Shown here piece after piece: positions 1 through 18,231 of a stretch of DNA of 35,188 bases. The stretch is from a virus. Each line of letters starts with the position of its first letter. The stretch's first letter is position 1. The notes beneath the pieces were generated by a model. The model did not search any database. It had not been told where the DNA came from and saw nothing but the letters and a program-made list of their open reading frames with translations. Where the stretch lies: the IMG/VR virus record IMGVR_UViG_3300041409_000428, positions 1 to 35,188 of that record, one strand, 5' to 3'. A program made the translations under genes and the position numbers.

Positions 1-349
1 AGCGGTTCTCGGTGGACTCGACGACCCAGATGTCGTGGCCGCGGGACTGGACGACGGCGCGGAGCGTGGCGGCGCGGGCGGCGGCGGTGCCGTCGATGAT
101 GTCGAACGACCGCAGGGCGGCCATCGGGGACAGGCCCACTTCGGTGCCGGACAGGATCGCGGCGGTGGCCTCGTGGGGCTTGTCGCGGAACTGCTTGGGG
201 ACGAACGAGGTCTTCACCAGCGATTCGGCGATGGCGTGGGCGGCGCGGGCCGCGTCGGCCCACTCGACGAGGGAAGCCACGCCGGGGGTGTAGTCGGGGA
301 CGGGCGCGAGCTGCGCACCGTCGTGGCGGGTGGCGAGCTCGGCGGTCAT
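1..349 (-). CDS. recT: RecT-like single-strand annealing protein (3' truncated by window edge)
   Basis: The first 116 codons of a protein are present, starting at ATG 349 and running off the left edge. After about 40 residues it carries the layout I know from actinophage RecT-like annealing proteins: AESLVKTSFVPKQFRD, then HEATAAILSGTEVGLSPM and LRAVVQSRGHDIWVV. These proteins coat single-stranded DNA and pair it with complementary strands during phage recombination. The upstream neighbour, overlapping by ATGA, is a PD-(D/E)XK exonuclease, which is the expected RecE/lambda-Exo-type partner; together they form a two-gene recombination module at the end of the early operon. Family assignment is from recognised motifs only, and the C-terminal half is not visible. 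Confidence 0.78.
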   Translation of the reverse strand, partial: MTAELATRHDGAQLAPVPDYTPGVASLVEWADAARAAHAIAESLVKTSFVPKQFRDKPHEATAAILSGTEVGLSPMAALRSFDIIDGTAAARAATLRAVVQSRGHDIWVVESTENR

Positions 350-1113
350 GCGACGTTCTCCGTTCGGGTCGGGGGTGTCAGCGGTGCGCCGACGTAGTCC
401 TTGATCTCGTCCTCGCGCTTCGCGACGAACGCGGCGTGGAGGAACGTCTTGAACGGCTCACCGTCGGACCGCAGCGGCACCAGGTCGTAGCCGTCCGCGC
501 GGACGTGGATCACACCGAGACGCGTGATGCCGTCAGGCATCGGCTGCTCGGACCCGTCCGCGGCGAGGTGGAACTCGAAGTTGCGGTAGGCATCGGTCTG
601 CATGGCGTTCTCGCCGTACACGCCCTTCGCGGTCTTCACGTCCAGCAGCCACCGGTCGGGCCCGATGTCGGCCACCAAGTCGCCCGTGCCCGCGTACCAC
701 CACTTCCGGTTTGCGCCCGTGAACTCGACGAGGATCGGCTTCGGGTCCCAGTCGTCGAGGAACCGCACGTAGGACTCGACGTGCCCGGCGAGCTCGTCCG
801 GCACTTCCACCTCGTCGCCGACGATCAGCTTCTCCGCCAGCTCGTGGACTTCCGTGCCGCGGTGCGCGGCGGCGTCCCGCTGGCTGTACGGGGCCTGCTT
901 GAGCGCGGCCACGACAGCGCCGCGGCCCATCGACTCCATCTCGAGTAGCTGCGGCAGGTGGTCGGCGGCGTACTCGGCGACGGACTTGATGCCCCACCCG
1001 ATGAGCGCCGGGGCGGGCACACCCTTCTTCAACAGGGTGGTGACGCCGCTGACGGCTTTCCCGTCGAGCTCGTACCGGTGTCCGTACCGGGTGGGGATCC
1101 TCTTGAGGGCCAT
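346..1113 (-). CDS. PD-(D/E)XK exonuclease, RecB/Cas4-like phage recombination nuclease
   Basis: This 255-residue protein carries a RecB-type nuclease core in order: HRGTEVH near residues 84-90, D145 in GTGDLVAD, the DVK triad D158-x-K160, and the Q172-x3-Y176 motif typical of RecB/lambda-Exo nucleases. The role expected for the family is 5'-3' resection of double-stranded ends to give single strands for the annealing protein encoded next (ATGA overlap). ATG 1113 is chosen because it overlaps the stop of the upstream gene by 4 bp and begins the conserved part; a longer reading in this frame is Arg/Pro-rich and is the shadow of the neighbour. It acts in the cytoplasm on phage DNA ends. Confidence 0.85.
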   Translation of the reverse strand: MALKRIPTRYGHRYELDGKAVSGVTTLLKKGVPAPALIGWGIKSVAEYAADHLPQLLEMESMGRGAVVAALKQAPYSQRDAAAHRGTEVHELAEKLIVGDEVEVPDELAGHVESYVRFLDDWDPKPILVEFTGANRKWWYAGTGDLVADIGPDRWLLDVKTAKGVYGENAMQTDAYRNFEFHLAADGSEQPMPDGITRLGVIHVRADGYDLVPLRSDGEPFKTFLHAAFVAKREDEIKDYVGAPLTPPTRTENVA

Positions 1114-1412
1114 CACAGACCCACCACCCGGAACGCCGAGTCGATCTCCTGCTCGGCGCAGTCCACGATCTCCGGCGACTCGGCGTAGTTGCCGGCGTGG
1201 GCGATGGCGTAGATGGCGTCGGTGAGCATTGTCCACAGTTGCTGGCGTTGTAGGTCGGTGGCGTGGGGGAGGCAGATGCGGAGCGCGGCGGCTTCGGCCG
1301 CGTCGGTCGCGCCTTCTTCGGCGAGGGCGCGGAGGAGTAGGCGGGCGTCGTGGTTGTGGCCGATGTCGGTGGTGGTGGCCCAGTTGTAAGCGGCGGGGTC
1401 GGTGGGGTTCAC
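1113..1412 (-). CDS. Hypothetical early protein, helical
   Basis: A 99-residue protein that I do not recognise. It starts at GTG 1412, which overlaps the upstream stop (GTGA), and its own stop overlaps the ATG of the exonuclease gene. After a short N-terminal segment (NPTDPAAYNW) the sequence is Ala/Leu-rich and looks mostly helical, ending acidic (IVDCAEQEIDSAF). No metal-binding, membrane or nuclease motif is visible. Its position directly before the exonuclease/RecT pair suggests an accessory role in early replication or recombination, but that is only inference from context. Confidence 0.72.
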   Translation of the reverse strand: MNPTDPAAYNWATTTDIGHNHDARLLLRALAEEGATDAAEAAALRICLPHATDLQRQQLWTMLTDAIYAIAHAGNYAESPEIVDCAEQEIDSAFRVVGL

Positions 1413-1783
1413 GACGCGCGCTCCCTGAGGATGCGGGCGGCGATGTGATCGAGGTCTTCGACTTCGTTGCCGCCGTCGAACAGGGATTCCGCATCGCTGT
1501 CGGAGATGTGCATCAGCTGCTGGGCGAGGCTGGCGATGCGGTACAGCTGCCCCGTGTCGGGGTTGCGGACGCAGCACGTCGTGGTCTGGGCACCCCGGCG
1601 GACGGGAGTACACGAGCAGTACTCGAACTCGCACGACGCGGGTTCGTATCCGGCGAGGAGGCAGGCGCGGCCCGCGACGCACGCCGTGGTGCCGCACGAC
1701 CACACGGTCTGCTCGTGCTGCTCCGGGTGGGCGTGGATGTGACCGAGCACCTCGGCAACGGGGACGTGGCTTCGGACGGTCAT
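1409..1783 (-). CDS. Actinophage early protein with HPE...W.CGT..C.AGRA motif
   Basis: 124 residues from ATG 1783. The N-terminal half carries IHAHPEQHEQTVWSCGTTAC followed by AGRACLL, a signature I associate with a family of small actinophage early proteins of unknown function. The C-terminal half has an LF-D/N-x-E-x-DL region (SLFDGGNEVEDLDHIA). The gene at 2049-2402 is a clear paralogue with the same two blocks. This copy has a Cys-rich insert between the blocks (CEFEYCSCTP, then TTTCC), giving nine or so cysteines overall, which might bind metal. Stop and start overlap both neighbours. No enzymatic function can be assigned. Confidence 0.78.
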   Translation of the reverse strand: MTVRSHVPVAEVLGHIHAHPEQHEQTVWSCGTTACVAGRACLLAGYEPASCEFEYCSCTPVRRGAQTTTCCVRNPDTGQLYRIASLAQQLMHISDSDAESLFDGGNEVEDLDHIAARILRERAS

Positions 1784-4934: not shown

Positions 4935-5138
4935 TCAGGACGCCGTGCGTGTGCGGGACTCGATGAACGCCTTCAGGTCCGCCTCGGTGATCCGCGACCG
5001 CGCGCGCTTCGACCCCGGGGACCGGACATCCACCACCGGCAGGTCGCCGCTGGCGATCAGGTCGTAGACGGCGGACCGGCCGATCTGCAGCTGCTCGGCT
5101 ACCTCGGCGGGCGTCAGCAGCCGCCTCGGCGCGGTCAC
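4935..5138 (-). CDS. Excisionase-like helix-turn-helix protein (MerR/AlpA-type fold)
   Basis: 67 residues from GTG 5138, overlapping the stop of the Cro-like gene. The chain LTPAEVAEQLQIGRSAVYDL followed by IASGDLPVVDV and SKRARSRITEADLKAFIE is the classic HTH_17 (excisionase/AlpA) domain: helix-turn-helix near residues 9-25, a basic wing, then a last helix. Such proteins bend DNA for prophage excision or regulate transcription. As the second gene of the lytic transcript with a tyrosine integrase on the opposite strand, a Xis role is likely but not proven. The wing is unusually basic (GSKRARSR). Confidence 0.78.
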   Translation of the reverse strand: MTAPRRLLTPAEVAEQLQIGRSAVYDLIASGDLPVVDVRSPGSKRARSRITEADLKAFIESRTRTAS

Positions 5139-5377
5139 GCCGCACCGGCCTGGTCGTGGCGCCGCTTCTCGAGCATCGACATCGGCACGTTCAGCGCCTC
5201 GGCGAGCCGCTTGGTGATCCGCGGGTTGGGTTCGCGGCGGCCGCTCTCCAGCTCGGACAGGTAGCTGAGGCTCATCCCGGCGGCGGTGGCGAGTGTGGTG
5301 AGGGTGTGGCCGTCCTTCGTGCGAAGGACCCGCAGCTCCGTCCAGGGACGGGTGTCCGGTTCGGTGGTCGGCGTCAT
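5135..5377 (-). CDS. Cro-like XRE-family regulator, first gene of early operon
   Basis: 80 residues from ATG 5377. The HTH_3 domain is clear: LRTKDGHTLTTLATAAGMSL, SYLSELESGRREPN and ITKRLAEALNVPMSMLEK, spanning about residues 17-70. It lacks the C-terminal dimerisation or cleavage domain of CI proteins and leads the early operon, so a Cro-like role is inferred. The promoter (5384-5413) has a repeat-type operator filling its spacer and predicts a leaderless transcript, which suggests autoregulation by this protein or by the divergent regulator. Confidence 0.85.
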   Translation of the reverse strand: MTPTTEPDTRPWTELRVLRTKDGHTLTTLATAAGMSLSYLSELESGRREPNPRITKRLAEALNVPMSMLEKRRHDQAGAA

Positions 5378-5566: not shown

Positions 5567-6007
5567 GTGACAGATCAGCAATGGCCCGCAGGCGCAGCAA
5601 TCCAACGGGCCAGGGGCAACCTGAGCATCAGAGCCGCCGCCAAACGGGCCGGGATCAGCGAAGCCCGATGGCGTCACATCGAGCTCGGATACCAGATCGC
5701 CAGCGGCGGCCACAAACTGCCCGTGAACCCGCGACCCGAGAACGTCGTCGCCGTCGCCCGGGCCGTCGACCTCGACCCCGCCGAACTGTTCGCACTCATG
5801 GGCCGCGACGACTTCCCGCCGCTGCTCAGCATCCCCGTCCCCGAAGTGCGGCCCGACATCGTCGTAACCATCGAGGCCGGCAGCGACCTCACCGACGACG
5901 AACGCCAAGGCGCGACGGAGACGGCGCGTGCGGCGGCTGAGGCGTATGTGCGTGCTGTCCGCGAGCAAGGCAGGCGCGCGGGCCTTACGGCCGGAGATGA
6001 TCGCTGA
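5567..6007 (+). CDS. XRE-family regulator, candidate lysogeny repressor
   Basis: 146 residues from GTG 5567. The N-terminal half is an XRE helix-turn-helix (AIQRARGNLSIRAAAKRAGI, then SEARWRHIELG) with a short insert (YQIASGGHKLPVNPRP) before the last helices (VVAVARAVDLDPAELFALMG). The C-terminal half is acidic and helical, with no visible protease dyad for self-cleavage. It is divergent from the Cro-like gene and co-directional with the integrase, the place of an immunity repressor. The GTG is chosen because it lies six bases from a promoter -10 and directly before the conserved domain. Confidence 0.82.
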   Translation: MTDQQWPAGAAIQRARGNLSIRAAAKRAGISEARWRHIELGYQIASGGHKLPVNPRPENVVAVARAVDLDPAELFALMGRDDFPPLLSIPVPEVRPDIVVTIEAGSDLTDDERQGATETARAAAEAYVRAVREQGRRAGLTAGDDR

Positions 6008-6331: not shown

Positions 6332-7543
6332 GTGGCGTCGTACACGAAGTTGCCGTCGGGTAAGTGGCGAGCCCAGGTGCGCCTCCCCAGCGGGCGTCGG
6401 CCGTCGAAGACGGATCCGTTGAAGTCCGTCGTGAAGCGGTGGGCGGAGGATGTGGAGGCGAAGGCCCGCCGCGGCGAGTACGCCGACCCGGTCGTCGGGA
6501 AGTTGACCGTGGCGGCGTTCCACGCCAGGTGGTGGCCGTGGCCGGGGCGGAAGGGTCAGCCGTTGTCGGATCACACGCTGCGGAACTACGGCCAGCAGTG
6601 GCATCTGCGGGTGGAGCCGTATTGGGGGCGTTGGCAGTTGTCGGCGATCCAGCGCGGCGACGTGGTGGAGTGGTGCGACGGGCTGAACCGGTCGACGCGG
6701 GTCGCCCACCCGGACCACCCCACGCGGACCGTGGACGTGGCGAAGCTGGCGAAGTTGGAGGCCGAGGGGTGGGAGGACTTGGGCCGGGCGACGCGCACCA
6801 ACGAGATCGCCCGCACCATGTTCTCCTCGCTGCTGCGTGTCGCTGCCGAGAAGGAGCTGATCCGGAGCAATCCGGCTGAGGGTGTGTACCCGGCGAAGCC
6901 GCTGGTGACCCCGCCGCGGTGGTTCACCAAGGAGGAGGCGGCCCGGATCCTCGAGGAGCTGCCGACCGACGCCGACCGGCTGATGGTGGAGTTCAACCTG
7001 CACGTCGGTCTGCGGTGGGGTGAGCTGGCGGCGCTGCGCGGGATGCGGATCGACCAGCTCCGCAACGTGGTGGTGGTGCAGGACGTGCTGATGCACGACG
7101 GGAAGTTGCGGGGCTACCCGAAGGAGCACCACTCGCAGCGTGAGGTGCCGATTCCCCCGGAGCTGGTTCCCCGGATGCTGGCGCAGGTGGGTGGCGACCT
7201 GACGGACTGGCTGTTCCCGTCACCTCGGGGCGGGCCGTTGCTGTACGACAACTGGTATCACCGGGTGTGGGCACCGACGTTGAGGGCCGCGGGGGTGGAG
7301 GGGACGCCGCATCACATGCGGCACACGGCTGCCTCCTGGCTGGTGCAGGCGGGGGTGGATTTGTACCGGGTGCAGAAGCTGCTGGGTCATGCGTCGATGA
7401 CGACGACGCAGCGGTATGCGCATCTGGCCCCGGATTACCACGACGCGATCACCGACTCGTGGCGTGACGCTACGGCTTCCAACCCTTCGGCATCGTCGCC
7501 GCCGCGTAGGCCAGCATCCGACGGATCATCTCCGAGCGGTTAG
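6332..7543 (+). CDS. int: Tyrosine recombinase (phage integrase)
   Basis: 403 residues from GTG 6332. Order of parts: a small N-terminal arm-binding domain (ASYTKLPSGKWRAQVRLPSG), a SAM-like core-binding domain at about 65-190, and the catalytic domain. Catalytic residues are visible: R228 in GLRWGEL, H327/H328-x-R330 in HHMRH, H353 in LGHASM and nucleophile Y362 in TTQRYAHL. Family members catalyse site-specific integration and, with an excisionase, excision. The putative attP, a tRNA-Arg 3' end with flanking direct repeats, lies 830 bp downstream. The last 25 codons overlap a convergent gene and are Ser/Pro-rich, as if added to a normal C-terminus. Confidence 0.93.
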   Translation: MASYTKLPSGKWRAQVRLPSGRRPSKTDPLKSVVKRWAEDVEAKARRGEYADPVVGKLTVAAFHARWWPWPGRKGQPLSDHTLRNYGQQWHLRVEPYWGRWQLSAIQRGDVVEWCDGLNRSTRVAHPDHPTRTVDVAKLAKLEAEGWEDLGRATRTNEIARTMFSSLLRVAAEKELIRSNPAEGVYPAKPLVTPPRWFTKEEAARILEELPTDADRLMVEFNLHVGLRWGELAALRGMRIDQLRNVVVVQDVLMHDGKLRGYPKEHHSQREVPIPPELVPRMLAQVGGDLTDWLFPSPRGGPLLYDNWYHRVWAPTLRAAGVEGTPHHMRHTAASWLVQAGVDLYRVQKLLGHASMTTTQRYAHLAPDYHDAITDSWRDATASNPSASSPPRRPASDGSSPSG

Positions 7544-7658: not shown

Positions 7659-7705
7659 CAGCGGGCGCCCCCGTGCCTGTGGGCACCGACACGGGGGGCC
7701 GTCAC
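7658..7705 (-). CDS. Possible 15-residue linking ORF
   Basis: GTG 7705 overlaps the stop of the upstream gene (GTGA) and the TGA shares one base with ATG 7658. The 15-residue peptide (VTAPRVGAHRHGGAR) carries no motif. It may only serve to hand ribosomes across the gap between the two genes. Confidence 0.28.
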   Translation of the reverse strand: MTAPRVGAHRHGGAR

Positions 7706-8013
7706 GCGGACACCTCGTCCCAGCGGCGGGCGACGCGGCCGCGGCTGCCCTGGTTGATGGACTCGACGTAGATCACGCCGGGCTCGATGTCGTCACGGGG
7801 GCCGGACTCCTCTCCGCCGTAGTTGCTCACGAACCGGCCGACCGACCCCTCGCTGCTGTGCTCGACGCCCTGCGCGATGAGCGCCCGGACGAACGCCGCT
7901 CGGCTCTTGAACGCGCCGAGGACTCGTGCTTGGCGCATGTGCGCCGCGTCGCCGAGGGCGACGACGACCTTCTGGGGCACTATCGCCGTGTAGCCGAAAA
8001 CCTTCGCGCTCAT
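7702..8013 (-). CDS. Hypothetical protein, possible DNA-associated regulator
   Basis: 103 residues from ATG 8013 with AAGGAG about 9 bases upstream. The start MSAKVFGYTAIVPQKVVVAL resembles MTAKVFGAE of the next gene. The middle (MRQARVLGAFKSRAAFVRAL) looks helical and basic; the end (VIYVESINQGSRGRVARRW) is strand-like. Function unknown. The setting between integrase and attP suggests a role in integration control or maintenance, by inference only. Confidence 0.7.
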   Translation of the reverse strand: MSAKVFGYTAIVPQKVVVALGDAAHMRQARVLGAFKSRAAFVRALIAQGVEHSSEGSVGRFVSNYGGEESGPRDDIEPGVIYVESINQGSRGRVARRWDEVSA

Positions 8014-8207
8014 GGGGTGGGCTCCTTCGTGACCTGCCCGTCCAGCTCCGCCTTCATCGTCATGAACTCGCCGATGACGCGCCGGACCACGTGCGTCGCC
8101 ACGCTGACCTGCGTCGCGCTCGGCTCGGGCTGCGCGGCCTCGCCGTAGATCTCGTCCAGGGCCGCCCGAACGAGCCTGTCCTCTGCGCCGAACACCTTCG
8201 CGGTCAT
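8010..8207 (-). CDS. Hypothetical helical protein
   Basis: 65 residues from ATG 8207 with GAGGGAGA upstream. It begins MTAKVFGAEDRLVRAALDEI and continues as amphipathic helices (VSVATHVVRRVIGEFMTMKA). It shares its first residues with the gene it overlaps downstream, hinting at a common origin of the two N-termini. First gene behind the operator-bearing promoter, so it may encode the cognate regulator, though no clear HTH or RHH is seen. Confidence 0.68.
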   Translation of the reverse strand: MTAKVFGAEDRLVRAALDEIYGEAAQPEPSATQVSVATHVVRRVIGEFMTMKAELDGQVTKEPTP

Positions 8208-8232: not shown

Positions 8233-8279
8233 GTAGTGCATTACACTACGCCTCACCCACGCATTGTGCAATGCACTAC
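8233..8279 (-). promoter_or_regulatory. Promoter with paired operators upstream of the 7470-8207 genes
   Basis: On the minus strand -35 TTGCAC (8271-8266), 17 bp spacer, -10 TAGTGT (8248-8243). Both boxes sit in dyads: GTAGTG-N5-CACTAC at 8233-8249 and GTGCA-A-TGCAC at 8266-8276. The first read on the minus strand (GTGTAATGCACTAC) and the second on the plus strand (GTGCAATGCACTAC) differ at one base, so they are inverted copies of one operator. A dimeric repressor covering -35 and -10 is the natural reading. Confidence 0.55.
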
Positions 8280-8375
8280 GCGGAGGTTTTCGGCGGCGGG
8301 ACTCACCAGGGACTCACGAGGGGCCCGATCCGGCGGCCGGGAGCGGTCCGCACCCGGCTTGACCTGCTGTTGTTC

Positions 8376-8420
8376 TGGCGCGCCCGGCAGGGATCGAACC
8401 TGCGACCGGCCGCTTAGAAG
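8376..8420 (-). other. tRNA-Arg(TCT) 3' half, probable att core
   Basis: Read on the minus strand: anticodon loop CTTCTAA (anticodon TCT), a T-arm GCAGG-TTCGATC-CCTGC at 8403-8387, acceptor strand CGGGCGC, discriminator G and CCA (8378-8376). No D-arm or 5' acceptor half precedes it, and the 5' side of the anticodon stem does not pair beyond two or three bases, so this is not a functional tRNA. Identity beginning at the anticodon loop is the usual crossover segment of tRNA-targeting integrases. Confidence 0.75.
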
Positions 8421-8450
8421 GCACTTTTAGGCCCGTTCTGCTGCGTCCTG

Positions 8451-8520
8451 GTGGGTCCCGGTGCGTCGTTACCGGGTGGTGCCGCTAGTTGGGGAGTCCC
8501 GCTGGGTCCGGTTGGGTCCG
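8451..8520. repeat. Ten-base GYTGGGTCCG repeats beside attP
   Basis: GCTGGGTCCG and GTTGGGTCCG are tandem at 8501-8520, and GTGGGTCCCG lies at 8451-8460. On the complementary strand they read CGGACCCA. They could be further integrase or Xis sites, or recognition repeats for the TraB-like translocase encoded next door, since Streptomyces TraB proteins bind short GACCCGGA-type repeats. Neither is shown. Confidence 0.4.
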
Positions 8521-8551
8521 GGTGTGGCTGTACTAGCGCCTCACCAGTGAC

Positions 8552-8869
8552 TCACGCCCTGACGCAGCCGCCGCGTCCGCAGATGAACATCGGCCCGGCT
8601 GAAGGCTCTGGACGCCGGTAGAAGAACCCGATCGGGAACCCGGTCAGGAACGACAGCCGGTGAAGCTGGTCTTGTGTCGGGGTCCGGATCCCGGCCTCCC
8701 ACTCGTCCACCATCGGCTCAGCACCACCGCACGCCTCGTCGACCTCAGGTCCGTACAGGCCGCGTATGTCGAGTGCCTGCGTGATGCGTTCGGGTTGGAT
8801 GCCGTTCCGCTCTTCCCGCTGGTTCTCCAGGGTCCGTTCATAGCGCTGCCGGTCGCTGAGCTTCCTCAC
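8552..8869 (-). CDS. HTH-domain regulator with Cys-containing tail
   Basis: 105 residues from GTG 8869, preceded by AAGGAGG at a good distance. The middle (ITQALDIRGLYGPEVDEACG, EWEAGIRTPTQDQLHRLSFL, TGFPIGFFYR) follows the helix order of an XRE-type domain, with recognition-helix region near residues 45-60. The protein ends MFICGRGGCVRA, a CxxxxC tail. It is the last gene of the plasmid-type module, and its stop lies inside the attP arm repeat, so it could regulate transfer or excision. That role is inferred. Confidence 0.7.
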   Translation of the reverse strand: MRKLSDRQRYERTLENQREERNGIQPERITQALDIRGLYGPEVDEACGGAEPMVDEWEAGIRTPTQDQLHRLSFLTGFPIGFFYRRPEPSAGPMFICGRGGCVRA

Positions 8870-8922
8870 GCCATCCTCCTTGTCGTGCGCGCGGCCAGGG
8901 TCAGGAACTCCACCAGCGTCAC
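8866..8922 (-). CDS. Possible 18-residue linking ORF
   Basis: GTG 8922 overlaps the upstream stop and its TGA overlaps GTG 8869, both by GTGA. The peptide starts VTLVEFLTLAARTTRRMA and the ribosome-binding AAGGAGG of the next gene lies inside it. It bridges a 50-base gap, possibly only to keep translation coupled. Confidence 0.3.
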   Translation of the reverse strand: MTLVEFLTLAARTTRRMA

Positions 8923-9200
8923 GACGTGCCATCCCTAAGGATGTAGTGCGCCTCCGCGCTCTCCATGCGCGTCACGCGAGAGTCCACGCCGAGCAGCTCA
9001 CAAAGCGCGGCGTACTGGTGTGCCACCTCCACCGCCGCCATCGCGCCATTGAAGCGGACGGCGATGCGGCGGCCACTCACGTGATCCTCCGACCAGTCGA
9101 TCTGCTCAATGTCAGGGAAGGGGATGCGCTCGCCGTCCGTGGTGAGGACGGTCCACGGCCCGTCAGCCTTTCGCGCTACCGACTTGGCGCGCCTGGTCAT
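8919..9200 (-). CDS. Hypothetical protein of the transfer module
   Basis: 93 residues from ATG 9200, chosen for GGAAGGA about 7 bases upstream; an in-frame ATG at 9242 overlaps the upstream stop but lacks such a site. A strand-rich first half (GPWTVLTTDGERIPFPDIEQ, GRRIAVRFNGAM) precedes a helical part (VEVAHQYAALCELLGVD). Family unknown. Confidence 0.7.
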   Translation of the reverse strand: MTRRAKSVARKADGPWTVLTTDGERIPFPDIEQIDWSEDHVSGRRIAVRFNGAMAAVEVAHQYAALCELLGVDSRVTRMESAEAHYILRDGTS

Positions 9201-9679: not shown

Positions 9680-10075
9680 TCACCCCCACAGTCTGGGCTC
9701 ATTCCGTGCGTACTTTTCCATGACGCTGTTCCACGGACCGGCGAGCGCCTCGTACTGCTCCGGAGTGATCAGGTCACGCACCACCTCGGCGGACACGGCG
9801 CACCAGGCGGCGTCCGCCGCGTCTACCGCGTCCACGGGAGCGGCCGGAACGGCACGCCAGGCGGCGGACCGGGCGGCATCCAGAGCGGCGGACCGTCCGG
9901 CGGCCCGGGCGGCGGACCCGGTGATGACCCAGGCGTCGACCCGGACTACGCGCCAGGCGGCTGCCAGCGCCTCGACCTCATCGGGCGTCAGCCGCTGGGC
10001 ACGGGTGATCACTGCCGCGACGGCATCCCCGTTCGGTCCGAACGCCGCGCTGTCCGGTGTCGCCTCGCTGCTCAT
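9680..10075 (-). CDS. Hypothetical Ala-rich protein of the transfer module
   Basis: 131 residues from ATG 10075 (ATGA overlap with the nuclease gene). The N-terminal third is an amphipathic region (RAQRLTPDEVEALAAAWRVV). An Ala-rich middle with period-like AARSAAW/AADAAW units follows, and the end is ITPEQYEALAGPWNSVMEKY. The first and last parts look alike (LTPDEVEAL and ITPEQYEAL), suggesting two related helical modules. Function unknown. Confidence 0.72.
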   Translation of the reverse strand: MSSEATPDSAAFGPNGDAVAAVITRAQRLTPDEVEALAAAWRVVRVDAWVITGSAARAAGRSAALDAARSAAWRAVPAAPVDAVDAADAAWCAVSAEVVRDLITPEQYEALAGPWNSVMEKYARNEPRLWG

Positions 10076-10686
10076 GCTGCTCCCTCTGTCAGTTCCGGCC
10101 AGCCGTCGGTCATCCACGACGCCAGACCATCATGGTCCACACACACGATCCCGTGCCGCTCCGCGAACGCCAGCGCTGCCGGCGTGAACCGGGATGCGGT
10201 CGTCACGAACACGGCCACGTCCGCGCCGTGCTCGGCCCAGCAGGTGCCGTTGAACGTCTGCAACGCCGGGGAGCCGATCGGCTGCTGGTAGTCCTTCACC
10301 TGCACGACGACCCTGCGGCCGTCCGGCAGCCTGCCGGTCACATCCGCCCCCAGGTCCCCGGCGCCGCCGCACACCTGCACGTCGGTGCAGCCGTCGTCTT
10401 CGAGGAGGCGGCCGACCAGCTCCTCCACCTGGCGCGGGTCGAGCTGGTCGAGCGTGTTGGCGGAGTGGTCGCGGGCGTACCGCTCGGCCACCGCGTGTGT
10501 GGCGGCGCGGTGCCGCCACCACACCACCCCCGCCGCGAGCAGAAGCACCACCGCGACGGCCGCTGTCGTGACGCCGGGGTGCGCGCGGACCGCTGTCACG
10601 ACCACCGTGACCGCCTTCCACAGCAGCCACCCCACCACCAGTACAGCCACCAGCCGGAGCTGTCTGCGGGACCTCCGGGGCGCCAT
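10072..10686 (-). CDS. Membrane-anchored Mrr-type restriction endonuclease-like protein
   Basis: 204 residues from ATG 10686, which shares a base with the stop of the translocase gene. Two hydrophobic helices (about 12-34 and 39-57) are followed by a Mrr_cat domain: E89 in RQVEELVGRLLED, D115 in GADVTG, and Q129-V-K131 in VVVQVKDYQ, then FNGTCWAEHGADVAVFVTTA. This is the PD-(D/E)XK nuclease core of Mrr proteins, which cut DNA in the cytoplasm, often modified or foreign DNA. Tethered versions next to traB-like genes are known from actinomycete plasmids and AICEs. Whether it guards, exports or processes DNA is open. Confidence 0.82.
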   Translation of the reverse strand: MAPRRSRRQLRLVAVLVVGWLLWKAVTVVVTAVRAHPGVTTAAVAVVLLLAAGVVWWRHRAATHAVAERYARDHSANTLDQLDPRQVEELVGRLLEDDGCTDVQVCGGAGDLGADVTGRLPDGRRVVVQVKDYQQPIGSPALQTFNGTCWAEHGADVAVFVTTASRFTPAALAFAERHGIVCVDHDGLASWMTDGWPELTEGAA

Positions 10687-12683
10687 CAGGCGGGCTCGCC
10701 GTGCTCGGCGCCCTCGGCGGGGCCAGCGGCCCACCAGCCGGGGCGGGCCTTGTGCACCTTCCCGGCGCGTTCCAGGCGGGCCAGCTCCGGCGACACCGTT
10801 GTCCGGTCCAGGCCGAGGTCGTCGCCGATCTTCGACGGTGTCGCGTGCTCCACGCCTTGGAGGTAGGCGACGATGCGGGCGCCGACGGTGGGCGCGGACG
10901 GGGCGTCGGACAGGGGTATGACGGTGCGTTCCGGTTTGAGGCCCCGCGCCGCGTCGAGGGCGTCCCGGCTCATCTCGTCCAGCGGCACCGTGGTGCCCTC
11001 GGTGGACCAGCGGACCGGGTCGGGGTCGAAGTAGGAGCGGAACAGCGCGGGCCGCATCGACGCGCCCAAGGTGTAGCCGAGCCCGCCCGTCGGTGAGCCG
11101 TCCTTGAAGCGGCGCGGAATCTTGTACGGGTCGACGCCCGAGTCGTCCATCGCCGCCAAACCGGACACCTGGCCGGACAGCCGGTCGGCGGTGCGGAACA
11201 CCACCACGTTCCCCGACGTGAGACCGGCCCGGAGCGGGGTCGAGTTCCCGAGCTGGGACAGCAGCGGCACCTGCGCGACGAACGTCAACGCGATACCCAC
11301 CTTCCGGCCCGTGTTCACGATGTCCGCCGCGTTCTCCGCCGCGCCCTTGATCTTCATGACCTGCGGCGCCTCTTCGATGGTGATGGCCAGCAGCGGCATG
11401 TCGGTGGACGGCTCGAAGTGCTTCATGCCGTGCCGGGCCCGGCCTGCAACGTCGGTCCAGTCCATGGTCGCCATGTACCGGGCGCGGCTACGCATGACGG
11501 CCAGCGCCCACTGCAGCATCGCCGCCCCACCCTCCGGGGTGTCCACGGACAGGGCCACGTTGCCCATCCACTCCGGGAACGACATGCCGCCCTGGGGGCA
11601 GCAGATCCACGAGCTGATCAGCCCACCGGAGTGACGTTCGGTGGCGAGCTTGGTGCCGACGAACATGGACTTCCCGGAGCCGGTCGCGCCCGCGATGAGG
11701 GAGTGGACAGCGCCGGAGCCGGGCTGCCAGTAGCGGAGGTAGGCGAGGTCCCCGTCGTGGTACGGCCCGATGGGGGCGATGCCTTCCGTCACGTCGAGCT
11801 GCGGCCCCGGCCACACCTGCGGAACTTCGAGCATGTTGCTCTTGAGCACGGCGATCCTCGCCTGCGCGGCGTTGTAGTCCTCGGTGGGCTCCACGACCAC
11901 CGAGGACATGGGCAGCCGGTACGCCGACGCGATGCGGGCGGCAGCGTTGACGGCGTCGGCGGTGGTGTGCTTCCCCGGGTCGAGTTCGATGGTCGCCGAC
12001 CAGTTGCCGGTGTCGGCGGCGGGCAGGTAGTCGGTGAGCGCGGCGCCGGGCAGGGGCTTCCCGTCGGCGCTGACCCGGTCGGTCCAGATGGTGAGCCAGT
12101 CGCCGGGCCGTTCGGTGGCGCGGGCGCGGTGATGCCACCACCACGGCCCACCCCACGCGAGGACACCGACCGCGAGCAGGCCCGGCATCGGCGGACCCGA
12201 CCCGACCGCGGCGGCGACGGTGAGCCACAGGCCCGCGGCCGTGTACAGGGACCACACCCACAGCAGTTGCCGGCGGGTGCAGGCCTTGCGGCGCGCGGCT
12301 GGTCTGGTGGCGACCCGCTGGCGACTGACTGCCGCCGCCGGGTTGAGTCCGTGCAGCCACCAGGCCAGTGCGGTGCTGCCGAGGAGGGCGAGAGTGAGGG
12401 CGGTGGCGTATCCCTTGTCCGCGCCGGACAGAACAGCCCCGGCGACCTGCAGGACGATCGCCGCGTACAGGGGGGCGAGGCCCCTGCGGTGGGCCCAGCC
12501 GCGGCGGCCGGTCCACCGGGTGGCGGTGGCTGCCCCGCGCAGCATCACGCCGGGCAGCCACTCGGGGCGCATGGCCCGCTGGTAGGCGCGCATCGTCGCG
12601 CGGCGTTCCCGCCGCCCCATCTTGCCGGTGAATGCGGGCGGCAGGAACGGTGCCATGGTCGGCGTGATGCGTGCGCGGGCCAT
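10686..12683 (-). CDS. FtsK/SpoIIIE-family DNA translocase, TraB-like transfer protein
   Basis: 665 residues from ATG 12683. Two or three membrane helices lie between about residues 70 and 190, then a cytoplasmic ATPase. Walker A GATGSGKS is at residues 332-339 and the Walker B strand LLAITIEEA ends with E437-E438 in place of the usual Asp-Glu. NTGRKVGIALTFVAQVP is the conserved FtsK segment after Walker B. The C-terminus (about 600-655) is a winged helix (PSKIGDDLGLDRTTVSPELA), as in FtsK-gamma and TraB, which read short DNA repeats. In actinomycete plasmids such a protein alone moves double-stranded DNA between cells. Chromosome-type FtsK is larger, so TraB-like fits better. Confidence 0.88.
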   Translation of the reverse strand: MARARITPTMAPFLPPAFTGKMGRRERRATMRAYQRAMRPEWLPGVMLRGAATATRWTGRRGWAHRRGLAPLYAAIVLQVAGAVLSGADKGYATALTLALLGSTALAWWLHGLNPAAAVSRQRVATRPAARRKACTRRQLLWVWSLYTAAGLWLTVAAAVGSGPPMPGLLAVGVLAWGGPWWWHHRARATERPGDWLTIWTDRVSADGKPLPGAALTDYLPAADTGNWSATIELDPGKHTTADAVNAAARIASAYRLPMSSVVVEPTEDYNAAQARIAVLKSNMLEVPQVWPGPQLDVTEGIAPIGPYHDGDLAYLRYWQPGSGAVHSLIAGATGSGKSMFVGTKLATERHSGGLISSWICCPQGGMSFPEWMGNVALSVDTPEGGAAMLQWALAVMRSRARYMATMDWTDVAGRARHGMKHFEPSTDMPLLAITIEEAPQVMKIKGAAENAADIVNTGRKVGIALTFVAQVPLLSQLGNSTPLRAGLTSGNVVVFRTADRLSGQVSGLAAMDDSGVDPYKIPRRFKDGSPTGGLGYTLGASMRPALFRSYFDPDPVRWSTEGTTVPLDEMSRDALDAARGLKPERTVIPLSDAPSAPTVGARIVAYLQGVEHATPSKIGDDLGLDRTTVSPELARLERAGKVHKARPGWWAAGPAEGAEHGEPA

Positions 12684-12688
12684 GCCGG

Positions 12689-13606
12689 TCAGCCGCCCGT
12701 GTAGAACTGCCGGTTGGCGACCACGTCGCGGTGCTCGAGGATCGCCCCGTGCCGCTTGCGGACACCCTGCAGCGCGGCCTCGTTGGCGGCGTGCTCGTTC
12801 TCGGCGGCCTGCAGGAGCGCCCGGTGGGCGTTCATGCGGGACTCGACGGCTTCCCCGACGGTGCCGAGCTCGGCGAGGGTGTCGGGGTCGACCTCCATCT
12901 CGGAGAGGGACGCGACGGTTTCGTCGATGCGCTGCACGTCTTGTTCGGCGCGCTGCATTCCGGCTTGCGCGTCGTCGACCTCGTCGGCGGACCGCTTGAT
13001 GTCGGCTTCGAGCTGCTGCTCGTAGTCGTCCATGGAGTTGATGTCGGCGGTGCGGGTGGTGGTGGCCACGGGGGTGTTCTCCTTCGGTTGGGTGGTGCCG
13101 TTGTGGGTGGGGTCGGGTACGGCGGTGAGGGTCGGCGGCGGGGTGTCGGGTCGCGCGGGGGTGTTGGCCACCGGGTGCTGGTCGGGGTTGTCGGGTGCCG
13201 GGTCGACGTTGGCGGTGTCGGCCTTGCCACCGAAGCGGGCGCGGGCCCGTTCCTTGCCTTCCGGCCAGCCGCGTCGCCATCCGGCGGCGAACTCGCGGCG
13301 GACGACACCGGTTCCGGCGACCACAGCGGCCGTGCCGGTGGCGACCCGGCGGCCGACACCCGCGCCACGACCGGTGCCCGTCGCCACATAGCGGCTCCGC
13401 GTCGTCGTGGTCGTCCCGCCGCGGCCGGTGGACACCCTCGAACCGGCGCCGCCGACATGTCCCGGCGGAGCATGCCCGCCGGAGCCGTGGCCACCACCAC
13501 GGCGGCCCTGGATCAGCCGCTTCGTGGCCGCCGTGGCGTCCTCCGTAGCCCGTTTGAAGCCGTACAGCATCCCACCCAAGACGAGCAGGATCATGATCGG
13601 TTCCAT
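12689..13606 (-). CDS. Single-pass membrane protein with coiled-coil domain (transfer module)
   Basis: 305 residues from ATG 13606. A short hydrophobic N-terminus (MEPIMILLVLGGMLYGF) is followed by a Gly/Arg/Thr-rich linker, a Pro/Thr-rich stretch, and from about residue 190 an acidic heptad-rich helix region (LEADIKRSADEVDDAQAGMQ and following) to near the C-terminus. Proteins of this build sit next to traB in Streptomyces-type plasmids and may help spread or tether the translocase; the exact family was not identified. It ends five bases before the translocase start. Confidence 0.72.
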   Translation of the reverse strand: MEPIMILLVLGGMLYGFKRATEDATAATKRLIQGRRGGGHGSGGHAPPGHVGGAGSRVSTGRGGTTTTTRSRYVATGTGRGAGVGRRVATGTAAVVAGTGVVRREFAAGWRRGWPEGKERARARFGGKADTANVDPAPDNPDQHPVANTPARPDTPPPTLTAVPDPTHNGTTQPKENTPVATTTRTADINSMDDYEQQLEADIKRSADEVDDAQAGMQRAEQDVQRIDETVASLSEMEVDPDTLAELGTVGEAVESRMNAHRALLQAAENEHAANEAALQGVRKRHGAILEHRDVVANRQFYTGG

Positions 13607-13620
13607 CGGTCAGTCCTCCA

Positions 13621-14061
13621 TCAGTGAATGCCGAACAGGGCGCCGACGGCCATACCGGCGGCGGTGGCCACACCGTTCACGACAGACGTGCCGACCTGGC
13701 CAGCCAAGCCGGGGATCATGGCCACGGTCACCGGCACGAACGCGGCGGCCACCAACGTCCGGCCCGTCACCTTGTTCTGCCACAGGGCCACCGTCACCAA
13801 GGCGATCGCGACGATGGCCACGACACTGGTAGCCACGACACCACCCAACTGGCCGACGAACTGCGCGACGACGCCGTCCACGTACACCGCCGTGCGGTGC
13901 AGCCAGCTCGCCAGCCCCGACCCGGCGAGCCCCGACATCCCGGCGATGACCAGCACCGCGACGATCCGGGGCTGCCACCGGCCCGCCACGAACCACATGA
14001 TCGCGGCGACGACGAGACACACCAGCCCTGCGCCCGCCGAAATCCCCGCCCCTGCCGTCAT
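13621..14061 (-). CDS. Multi-pass membrane protein, Spd-like
   Basis: 146 residues from ATG 14061, overlapping the upstream stop by ATGA. Four or so hydrophobic segments are visible: about residues 8-28, 32-52, 72-92 and 100-118. No enzymatic motif. Its location two genes upstream of a TraB-like translocase and its composition match the small hydrophobic spread (Spd) proteins of actinomycete plasmids, which help intramycelial DNA spread. The assignment is by context. Confidence 0.73.
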   Translation of the reverse strand: MTAGAGISAGAGLVCLVVAAIMWFVAGRWQPRIVAVLVIAGMSGLAGSGLASWLHRTAVYVDGVVAQFVGQLGGVVATSVVAIVAIALVTVALWQNKVTGRTLVAAAFVPVTVAMIPGLAGQVGTSVVNGVATAAGMAVGALFGIH

Positions 14062-16573: not shown

Positions 16574-16650
16574 ACGCTACACCCGTGTCTAGACACGCAC
16601 CAGTGGTTCACGCTCAAAAGTGGTGTTGGTGTCTAGACACGGAGTACGGT
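16574..16650. promoter_or_regulatory. Divergent promoters with two GTGTCTAGACAC operators
   Basis: The 12 bp palindrome GTGTCTAGACAC occurs at 16585-16596 and 16629-16640, centres 44 bp apart. Each lies 4-5 bases upstream of a possible -10: TAGCGT on the minus strand (16579-16574) and TACGGT on the plus strand (16645-16650), so each would fill the spacer of one promoter; -35 boxes are weak. A related ACACCTAGACAC is at 16974-16985. The ribbon-helix-helix protein encoded at 16689 is the likely binder. Confidence 0.55.
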
Positions 16651-16688
16651 CGTGGCATGACGGTGCGAAGTCCTGACATGATGGCGGC

Positions 16689-16964
16689 GTGTCGAACCCC
16701 TCCCACACGCCGAAGCGCGTCTTCCGCGCCGACGACGACCTGTGGGACCCGGCCGCCGCGAAGGCGGAGAGACACGGCCGGACGATGAGCGACATCCTCC
16801 GCGAAGCCATGGCCCAGTGGATCCAGCCCGCCAAGGTGGCGTTGGGTGACAGGGTGCAGCTGCTGCGTGCCGGTGCGGCTCCGGAGCTGTACGAGGTGGT
16901 GGAGGAGCCGGTCGACGGTGTCGGTGGCCGGACCGTGCCGACACTGCGGAGGGTCGAGGAGTGA
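16689..16964 (+). CDS. Ribbon-helix-helix regulator divergent from the transfer operon
   Basis: 91 residues from GTG 16689; a stop codon 15 bases upstream in frame rules out a longer start. The N-terminal half has the RHH pattern: strand RVFRADD, helix LWDPAAAKAERH, then TMSDILREAMAQWI. The second half is strand-rich (VQLLRAGAAPELYEVVEEPV). Divergent orientation and paired palindromes suggest it represses itself and the transfer operon, like Kor-type controls of actinomycete plasmids. The function is inferred. Confidence 0.74.
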   Translation: MSNPSHTPKRVFRADDDLWDPAAAKAERHGRTMSDILREAMAQWIQPAKVALGDRVQLLRAGAAPELYEVVEEPVDGVGGRTVPTLRRVEE

Positions 16965-17050: not shown

Positions 17051-17284
17051 TCACGGCTGGCCGATGTCCGACCGCGGCGAATGCGCCGCATTCCAACCCG
17101 CCAGCAGACCAGCCGCCGTCGTGATCGCCGGAGCCACGAACACCTCGATGATGTCCGGCAGACCCGCCACCAGATCCGTGCTCGTCACACCGTTCAGAAT
17201 CGCCAGAGCCGCCACACCGACAAGGTAACTGGCAACCCCAGCGGCCTTGACCTTCGTCTCCATGGGCGCGTTCGCTGTCTTCAC
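17051..17284 (-). CDS. Phage holin-like protein (DUF7439-type)
   Basis: 77 residues from GTG 17284, overlapping the endolysin stop (GTGA); ATG 17263 is an alternative. It has VKAAGVASYLVGVAALAIL and then PDIIEVFVAPAITTAAGLLA, two hydrophobic helices, ending with GWNAAHSPRSD. The x-K-x-KA-x ... AG-x-x-A-x-HSPR pattern matches small holins next to amidases in actinophages. Holins form membrane lesions that let the endolysin reach the wall. It is the last gene of the late operon. Confidence 0.78.
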   Translation of the reverse strand: MKTANAPMETKVKAAGVASYLVGVAALAILNGVTSTDLVAGLPDIIEVFVAPAITTAAGLLAGWNAAHSPRSDIGQP

Positions 17285-18231
17285 TGCGCTGCTCCGTTCT
17301 CGGTGATACCGGGCGCCGCGGGCGCGGGCTCCGGGGTCTGCGACGCGTCGAAGTCGGCGCGGAGCTGCTCCAGGACCGCGTCCCGCTGGGCGGCCTTCGC
17401 GTCGCGCTGCGTGTCGTCCACGTCGTCGGTGTCCATGCGGGTCACCAGCATCTGCACGGCCCGGTTCAAGTTCTGGAAACTGCGCGTCAACTGCTCGTTC
17501 GTGGCCACCCGCTCCCCCTTCGAAGGCGCCGCCAGCACTCTGGCGCGCGCCATGATCTGGTCCTTCACCCGGCCCCGGAACCCCGGCCCGCAGTCCGTGT
17601 GACCGCCCACCCGGGCCCGCGCCACCGTCACGCAGTAGTGATCCGAGAACCCGCCCAGACGGACGTCGTTGGCCCGCACCGCAGCGTTCAACTGCGCCGG
17701 GCTGATCCACCGCAACGGAATGCCGTACCGCAGATTCAGCTCTGCCGCCCACGCCGCGCCGGCCTCCAGCAGCAGCTTCTCCGACAGCCACCGTTTCTCC
17801 GTCCAGGCGGCGAACGCGCACTGCTCGAGTGTCAGCGTCGACTCGTTGACGTCGGGGTTCGTCCACGCCGCCCACTGGTCCGGCACGTACCGGCCCCGCC
17901 GCCCGGCCGTGTCCGTGCCGACGTGCGACGACACGAACCGGGGCGTGTTCTTGAAGAAGTTCCCGAGCTCGGTGACCGTCAGCGCACCTTCGGCGGTGTG
18001 GAAGATCCCGGCCACGATCCGCTTGCTGCCGCGGCTCGAATAGTCCGGGCAGGGGATGACGATCCACTGCGCCTCCGCGCCCGCGAACCCCTCCGGCTCA
18101 CCGACCGCCGTCTCACCCTTCACGCCGTGCCCCACATCCGGGGAGTCGTCACCCGGATACGGGCGCGGCGGCGGCCACAGCGACGGGTCGATCTGCACAG
18201 GTTCGAGCTCCACGCGCTCCGGGGCGCTCAT
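17281..18231 (-). CDS. Endolysin, N-acetylmuramoyl-L-alanine amidase (Amidase_2/PGRP)
   Basis: 316 residues from ATG 18231. The amidase domain spans about residues 55-225: IFHTAEG with zinc ligand H78, SSHVGTD around H103, and GGHTDCGPGF with H211 and D213 or C214 as remaining ligands. The family cuts the bond between muramic acid and the stem peptide. From about 225 the C-terminus is helical and charged (NLNRAVQMLVTRMDTDDVDD), ending in a Pro/Ala-rich tail, and has no recognisable LysM or SH3 wall-binding module. The adjacent holin supports the role in lysis. Confidence 0.9.
   Translation of the reverse strand: MSAPERVELEPVQIDPSLWPPPRPYPGDDSPDVGHGVKGETAVGEPEGFAGAEAQWIVIPCPDYSSRGSKRIVAGIFHTAEGALTVTELGNFFKNTPRFVSSHVGTDTAGRRGRYVPDQWAAWTNPDVNESTLTLEQCAFAAWTEKRWLSEKLLLEAGAAWAAELNLRYGIPLRWISPAQLNAAVRANDVRLGGFSDHYCVTVARARVGGHTDCGPGFRGRVKDQIMARARVLAAPSKGERVATNEQLTRSFQNLNRAVQMLVTRMDTDDVDDTQRDAKAAQRDAVLEQLRADFDASQTPEPAPAAPGITENGAAQ

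Follow-up and report, generated by a model that had tools for sequence, protein, structure and literature searches.

A tRNA-Arg(TCT) 3' half flanked by putative arm-type sites as the probable attP of a temperate actinobacterial siphovirus

The occurrence of only the 3' half of a tRNA gene within a viral sequence raises the question of whether it belongs to a functional phage attachment site (attP), to the scar at one end of an integrated prophage, or to a disused relic. We addressed this question for the IMG/VR record IMGVR_UViG_3300041409_000428, positions 1 to 35,188 (hereafter the window, i.e. the whole stretch of 35,188 nt that was analysed). As detailed below, positions 8298-8557 very probably constitute the attP of a temperate siphovirus infecting an actinobacterium, used together with the integrase encoded at 6332-7543 at a host tRNA-Arg(TCT) gene (Table 1).

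On the minus strand, positions 8376-8420 read CTTCTAAGCGGCCGGTCGCAGGTTCGATCCCTGCCGGGCGCGCCA, which corresponds to tRNA-Arg(TCT) from the anticodon loop to the CCA end: when reverse-complemented, plus-strand TTAGAAG (8414-8420) gives the anticodon loop CTTCTAA with the anticodon TCT, and plus-strand TGG (8376-8378) represents the CCA end. Inspection of the sequence beside 8376-8420 revealed no 5' half of this tRNA, and ARAGORN detected no complete tRNA in the 35,188-nt window, in agreement with the first-pass annotation, which had described a minus-strand tRNA-Arg 3' half, from loop to CCA, lacking its 5' half. When the genomes of 84,980 prokaryote species were scanned, a single exact match to 42 nt of the core was obtained, located in Geodermatophilus sp. 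DF01-2 within an intact tRNA-Arg(TCT) gene, and the identity to this gene extends to 46 nt (8377-8422), a length far beyond chance. The core hence exactly duplicates the 3' part of a host tRNA gene, one of the features that characterize an attP. The core at 8376-8420 proposed in the first-pass annotation is upheld as an exact tRNA 3' half, with its outline refined by a host match running two bases further.

Table 1. Coordinates of the putative attP and of the surrounding phage features in the window
Feature	Position	Strand	Remarks
RecT-like gene	2-349		Left of the core
Exonuclease (Exo)	346-1494		Left of the core
Divergent HTH regulator (Cro/repressor-like)	5135-5377	-	phrog_2439, phrog_5823
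Probable immunity repressor-type gene (tentative)	5567-6007	+	Just before int; short C-terminal similarity to the regulator beside the G654 integrase
Tyrosine integrase, 403 aa	6332-7543	+	Transcribed toward attP; phrog_1 integrase E=4e-61; PF00589 E=1.5e-25
Left arm, tandem 11-bp arm-type sites GGGACTCACCA, GGGACTCACGA	8298-8319	+	Motif scan; includes repeat 8302-8318
attP common core	8377-8422	-	46 nt shared with the 3' part of the host tRNA-Arg(TCT) (exact match, L003 5175-5220; ARAGORN tRNA-Arg(tct) there)
Anticodon loop CTTCTAA	8414-8420	-	Loop from sequence; most likely strand-exchange (overlap) region, crossover position inferred
Right arm, putative inverted arm-type site GGGACCCACCA	8449-8459	-	Motif scan, 1 mismatch
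Right arm, putative inverted arm-type site GGGACTCCCCA	8490-8500	-	Motif scan, 1 mismatch
Right arm, tandem 11-bp arm-type sites GCGCCTCACCA, GTGACTCACGC	8536-8557	+	Motif scan, 2 mismatches each; includes repeat 8540-8556
HTH regulator gene	8552-8932	-	Stop codon within right arm; phrog_2439 E=1.2e-6 (weak regulator match)
Mrr-like nuclease	10072-10734	-	Right of the core; PF04471 E=7e-25
FtsK/SpoIIIE-like ATPase, 995 aa	10686-13673	-	Right of the core
Endolysin	17281-18231		Right of the core
Tail and connector genes	up to ~31 kb		Right of the core

Actinobacteriophage attP sites typically have 30-45 bp in common with a tRNA 3' half, which allows the tRNA to be rebuilt upon integration (PMC10865867), and 11-bp arm sites arranged in direct or inverted pairs have been described for them (PMC3203893). 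The arrangement in the window is akin to those of the tyrosine-integrase phages L5, Giles, CrimD and Pixie (PMC3203893, PMC10865867), which carry a 30-47 bp core with a tRNA or tmRNA 3' end rebuilding the host gene, this core being flanked on either side by paired 11-bp arm sites, whereas the target here is tRNA-Arg(TCT). The attP is, in this sense, a clean textbook-type example of an already known kind. We also considered tRNA-dependent lysogeny, in which a ~10-bp core fails to restore the tRNA and is combined with a phage tRNA gene, and rejected it, as the 46-nt core rebuilds the tRNA and the window is devoid of a tRNA gene.

A tyrosine integrase gene lies nearby, 0.83 kb from the attP, a further feature of such sites, and the HxxR...Y region of its product aligns to XerD/XerC-like structures. 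In Cluster K phages the attP is found on the 5' side of int, whereas here it lies past the int 3' end with two small ORFs in between. An attP beyond the 3' end of int is a lambda-like arrangement. The nearest integrases found are ~35-40% identical; those near a tRNA adjoin tRNA-Pro, tRNA-Val and others, and some have no tRNA within reach. Since relatives at this level of identity are associated with other tRNAs, integrase homology cannot predict the choice of target, and no integrase relatives were confirmed in viral contigs. Upstream of int, the candidate repressor-type gene at 5567-6007 returned no PHROG match. The two small minus-strand ORFs that separate int from attP encode 65 aa and 103 aa (7702-8207); they overlap by ATGA, both begin with M(T/S)AKVFG and likewise gave no PHROG match; two palindromic GTAGTGCATTACACTAC-like repeats (8233-8279) precede them, giving the whole the look of a small autoregulated operon.

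The first-pass annotation had further pointed to matching arm repeats on both sides of the core. The underlying pair of direct repeats (8302-8318 and 8540-8556) is indeed identical at 16 of 17 positions; however, 16/17 pairs spaced 100-400 bp apart occur at about nine further places in the 35 kb, so that the 17-nt pair alone is weak evidence. Both repeats resolve into tandem pairs of an 11-bp unit, GGGACTCACSA (starts at 8298 and 8309, and at 8536 and 8547), and two inverted copies were found in the right arm. Allowing up to two mismatches, 6 of the 19 matches to this motif in the whole window fall within the 260 bp of 8298-8557, the two weakest sites carrying two mismatches to the consensus; as the motif was derived from the region itself, this count is partly circular, and four sites remain in the 260 bp once the two defining ones are set aside. 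Of 3000 random 11-mers drawn from the window, 21 were clustered at least as densely as the observed 5 in 260 bp, which lends modest statistical support to the array. Repeated arm-type sites, in the form of six 11-bp motif matches, are thus present on both sides of the core, as in other attP sites, and the six putative sites within 260 bp have the layout of tyrosine-integrase arm sites. As the first-pass annotation had noted, the right-arm repeat overlaps a stop codon: 8540-8556 contains the TGA (plus-strand TCA, 8552-8554) that ends the minus-strand ORF 8552-8932. There is a slight chance that the arrangement of arm sites, together with an attP located 0.8 kb past the int 3' end behind two small ORFs, reflects a variant integration complex, or that a right arm placed over the stop of the HTH gene couples regulation and recombination.

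An attR would likewise show a tRNA 3' half on its own, as in a contig (C95) of another genome discussed below, and the window might accordingly run from a prophage into host DNA, or into a neighbouring element, at a tRNA fragment. We regard such an attR-type scar as highly improbable, in view of the integrase and arm repeats surrounding the core and of the phage genes on both of its sides, whose order and content are consistent with one temperate siphovirus. In addition, we compared the window with a related provirus (IMGVR_UViG_3300044739_000092, hereafter G654), which has a homologous tail module, with a tape measure 62% identical to that of the window, and matching early genes. Homologues of the left side of the window are located at 3.5-5.8 kb in G654 and those of the right side at 32-51 kb, including a homologue of the Mrr-like gene at 50.8 kb, toward the right end. 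The two sides of the window therefore correspond to opposite ends of a single provirus, i.e. to an attP arrangement, whereas host DNA would be expected on one side of an attR. By gene content and by comparison with G654, phage DNA is found on both sides of the core, which bears out the earlier proposal that the window represents unintegrated phage DNA. A second IMG/VR contig (3300035687_000017), which may not be fully independent of the window, also spans the site: it matches the window at 100% identity across 27,261 bp and runs 2.7 kb further; its end gave no match to plasmids, and no near matches to the region were found in sequenced phages.

G654 itself carries a different integration module. 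At its left end, an exonuclease III-like host gene is broken at ~1.2 kb and followed by a large serine integrase (1.2-2.7 kb; L060 1-2676) and a repressor-type gene, with host DNA beyond the integrase end, as opposed to the tyrosine integrase and tRNA-Arg core of the window. A comparison of its two ends revealed neither terminal repeats nor an att duplication exceeding 15 nt. A second recombinase, of the tyrosine type, is encoded near its right end (L062 12954-13982). The association of related tail modules with either integration module illustrates the known swapping of such modules.

To what extent could the core be used in a host? When the 5' half from DF01-2 was joined in silico to the 3' half carried by the phage, ARAGORN detected a tRNA-Arg(tct), now with a CCA that is encoded by the phage and not by the DF01-2 gene, while no tRNA was detected in the reciprocal in-silico junction or in the attP. 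The tRNA is thus restored in silico at one junction, as expected of an attP, and it would fall on the integrase side. Together with the core match, this is in line with the suggestion of the first-pass annotation that the phage integrates at tRNA-Arg(TCT) and restores its 3' end, integration as such being inferred. The DF01-2 gene appears to be unoccupied, because by reading the flanking ORFs are host-like: a flavin-dependent-oxidoreductase-like protein is encoded to one side, an ABC-F type ATPase and a single-strand binding protein to the other. The anticodon stem is different in other Geodermatophilaceae, and besides DF01-2 only three genomes of the family, of 112 searched, come within three mismatches of the 44-nt core. 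As the only exact match among the searched genomes, DF01-2 points to the true host only tentatively.

The viral and genome collections that we searched yielded neither a provirus of this phage nor its attL/attR, and a tape-measure search of Geodermatophilaceae, performed without a positive control, gave no hit at E <= 1e-100. Such a result, as well as the location of integrase relatives near other tRNAs, would fit a decayed attP or a captured, disused tRNA piece in a phage that integrates elsewhere. This reading is extremely improbable, given that the core carries no mutation and yields a perfect tRNA in silico and that the arm sites and the integrase are intact in form.

The check proposed earlier, namely a search for prophages whose ends duplicate the tRNA 3' half, gave no provirus of this phage as stated above, but an apparent duplication of this kind was seen for another element. 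In another genome of the same order (G175), one contig carries a full tRNA-Arg(TCT) next to an integrase and a second contig carries a 3'-half fragment, which together form an apparent attR/attL pair (L063 9510-9550 and L064 3716-3790) with 41 nt in common that start exactly at the anticodon loop. As the two contigs are not joined, this pair is only suggestive of provirus ends at tRNA-Arg(TCT). A tRNA-Arg(TCT) 3'-half pattern gave at least 80 matches in at least 79 further IMG/VR loci; among the matches listed, 76 of 80 are complete tRNAs, and many of the contigs carry an integrase 0.3-1 kb from the tRNA 3' side, reading toward the tRNA. Many of these matches look near-identical and probably derive from few lineages. 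Overall, tRNA-Arg(TCT) is a common integration target. The elements in IMG/VR and G175 resemble this phage in the tRNA gene used and, in many cases, in a 3'-side integrase transcribed toward it, whereas their integrases are only ~20-30% identical and their cores differ.

These observations suggest a model in which the N-terminal domain of the tyrosine integrase would bind the 11-bp arm sites and its catalytic domain the core. Strand exchange with the matching host tRNA-Arg(TCT) gene would occur near the anticodon loop at 8414-8420, a crossover candidate because the identity of the G175 pair begins exactly there. The phage copy of the 3' half would then rebuild the host tRNA at the integrase-side, attL-like end, and the far end of the prophage would retain the old host 3' half as a fragment. 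Most likely, we are dealing with a virus of a soil actinobacterium that docks into the end of a tRNA gene without breaking it. The site marks an otherwise unassigned metagenomic phage as temperate and predicts its integration gene, the tRNA match narrows the host, and the intact integrase/attP pair could serve as an integration tool for actinobacteria.

Two further regions right of the core deserve mention. The FtsK/SpoIIIE-like ATPase has its best relatives (~34%) on Streptomyces and Kitasatospora plasmids, and together with the Mrr-type nuclease (10072-13673) it may form a defence or transfer module inside the phage. A 29-nt match between window positions 16729-16757 and the interrupted exonuclease gene of G654 was considered as a second att site and rejected, as it encodes a short shared peptide (DD-WDPAA) within an unrelated 91-aa ORF. 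This plus-strand ORF, for which no Pfam match was found, is located in an otherwise minus-strand-coded region, has by eye the look of a ribbon-helix-helix regulator and is preceded by GTGTCTAGACAC palindromes (16580-16964).
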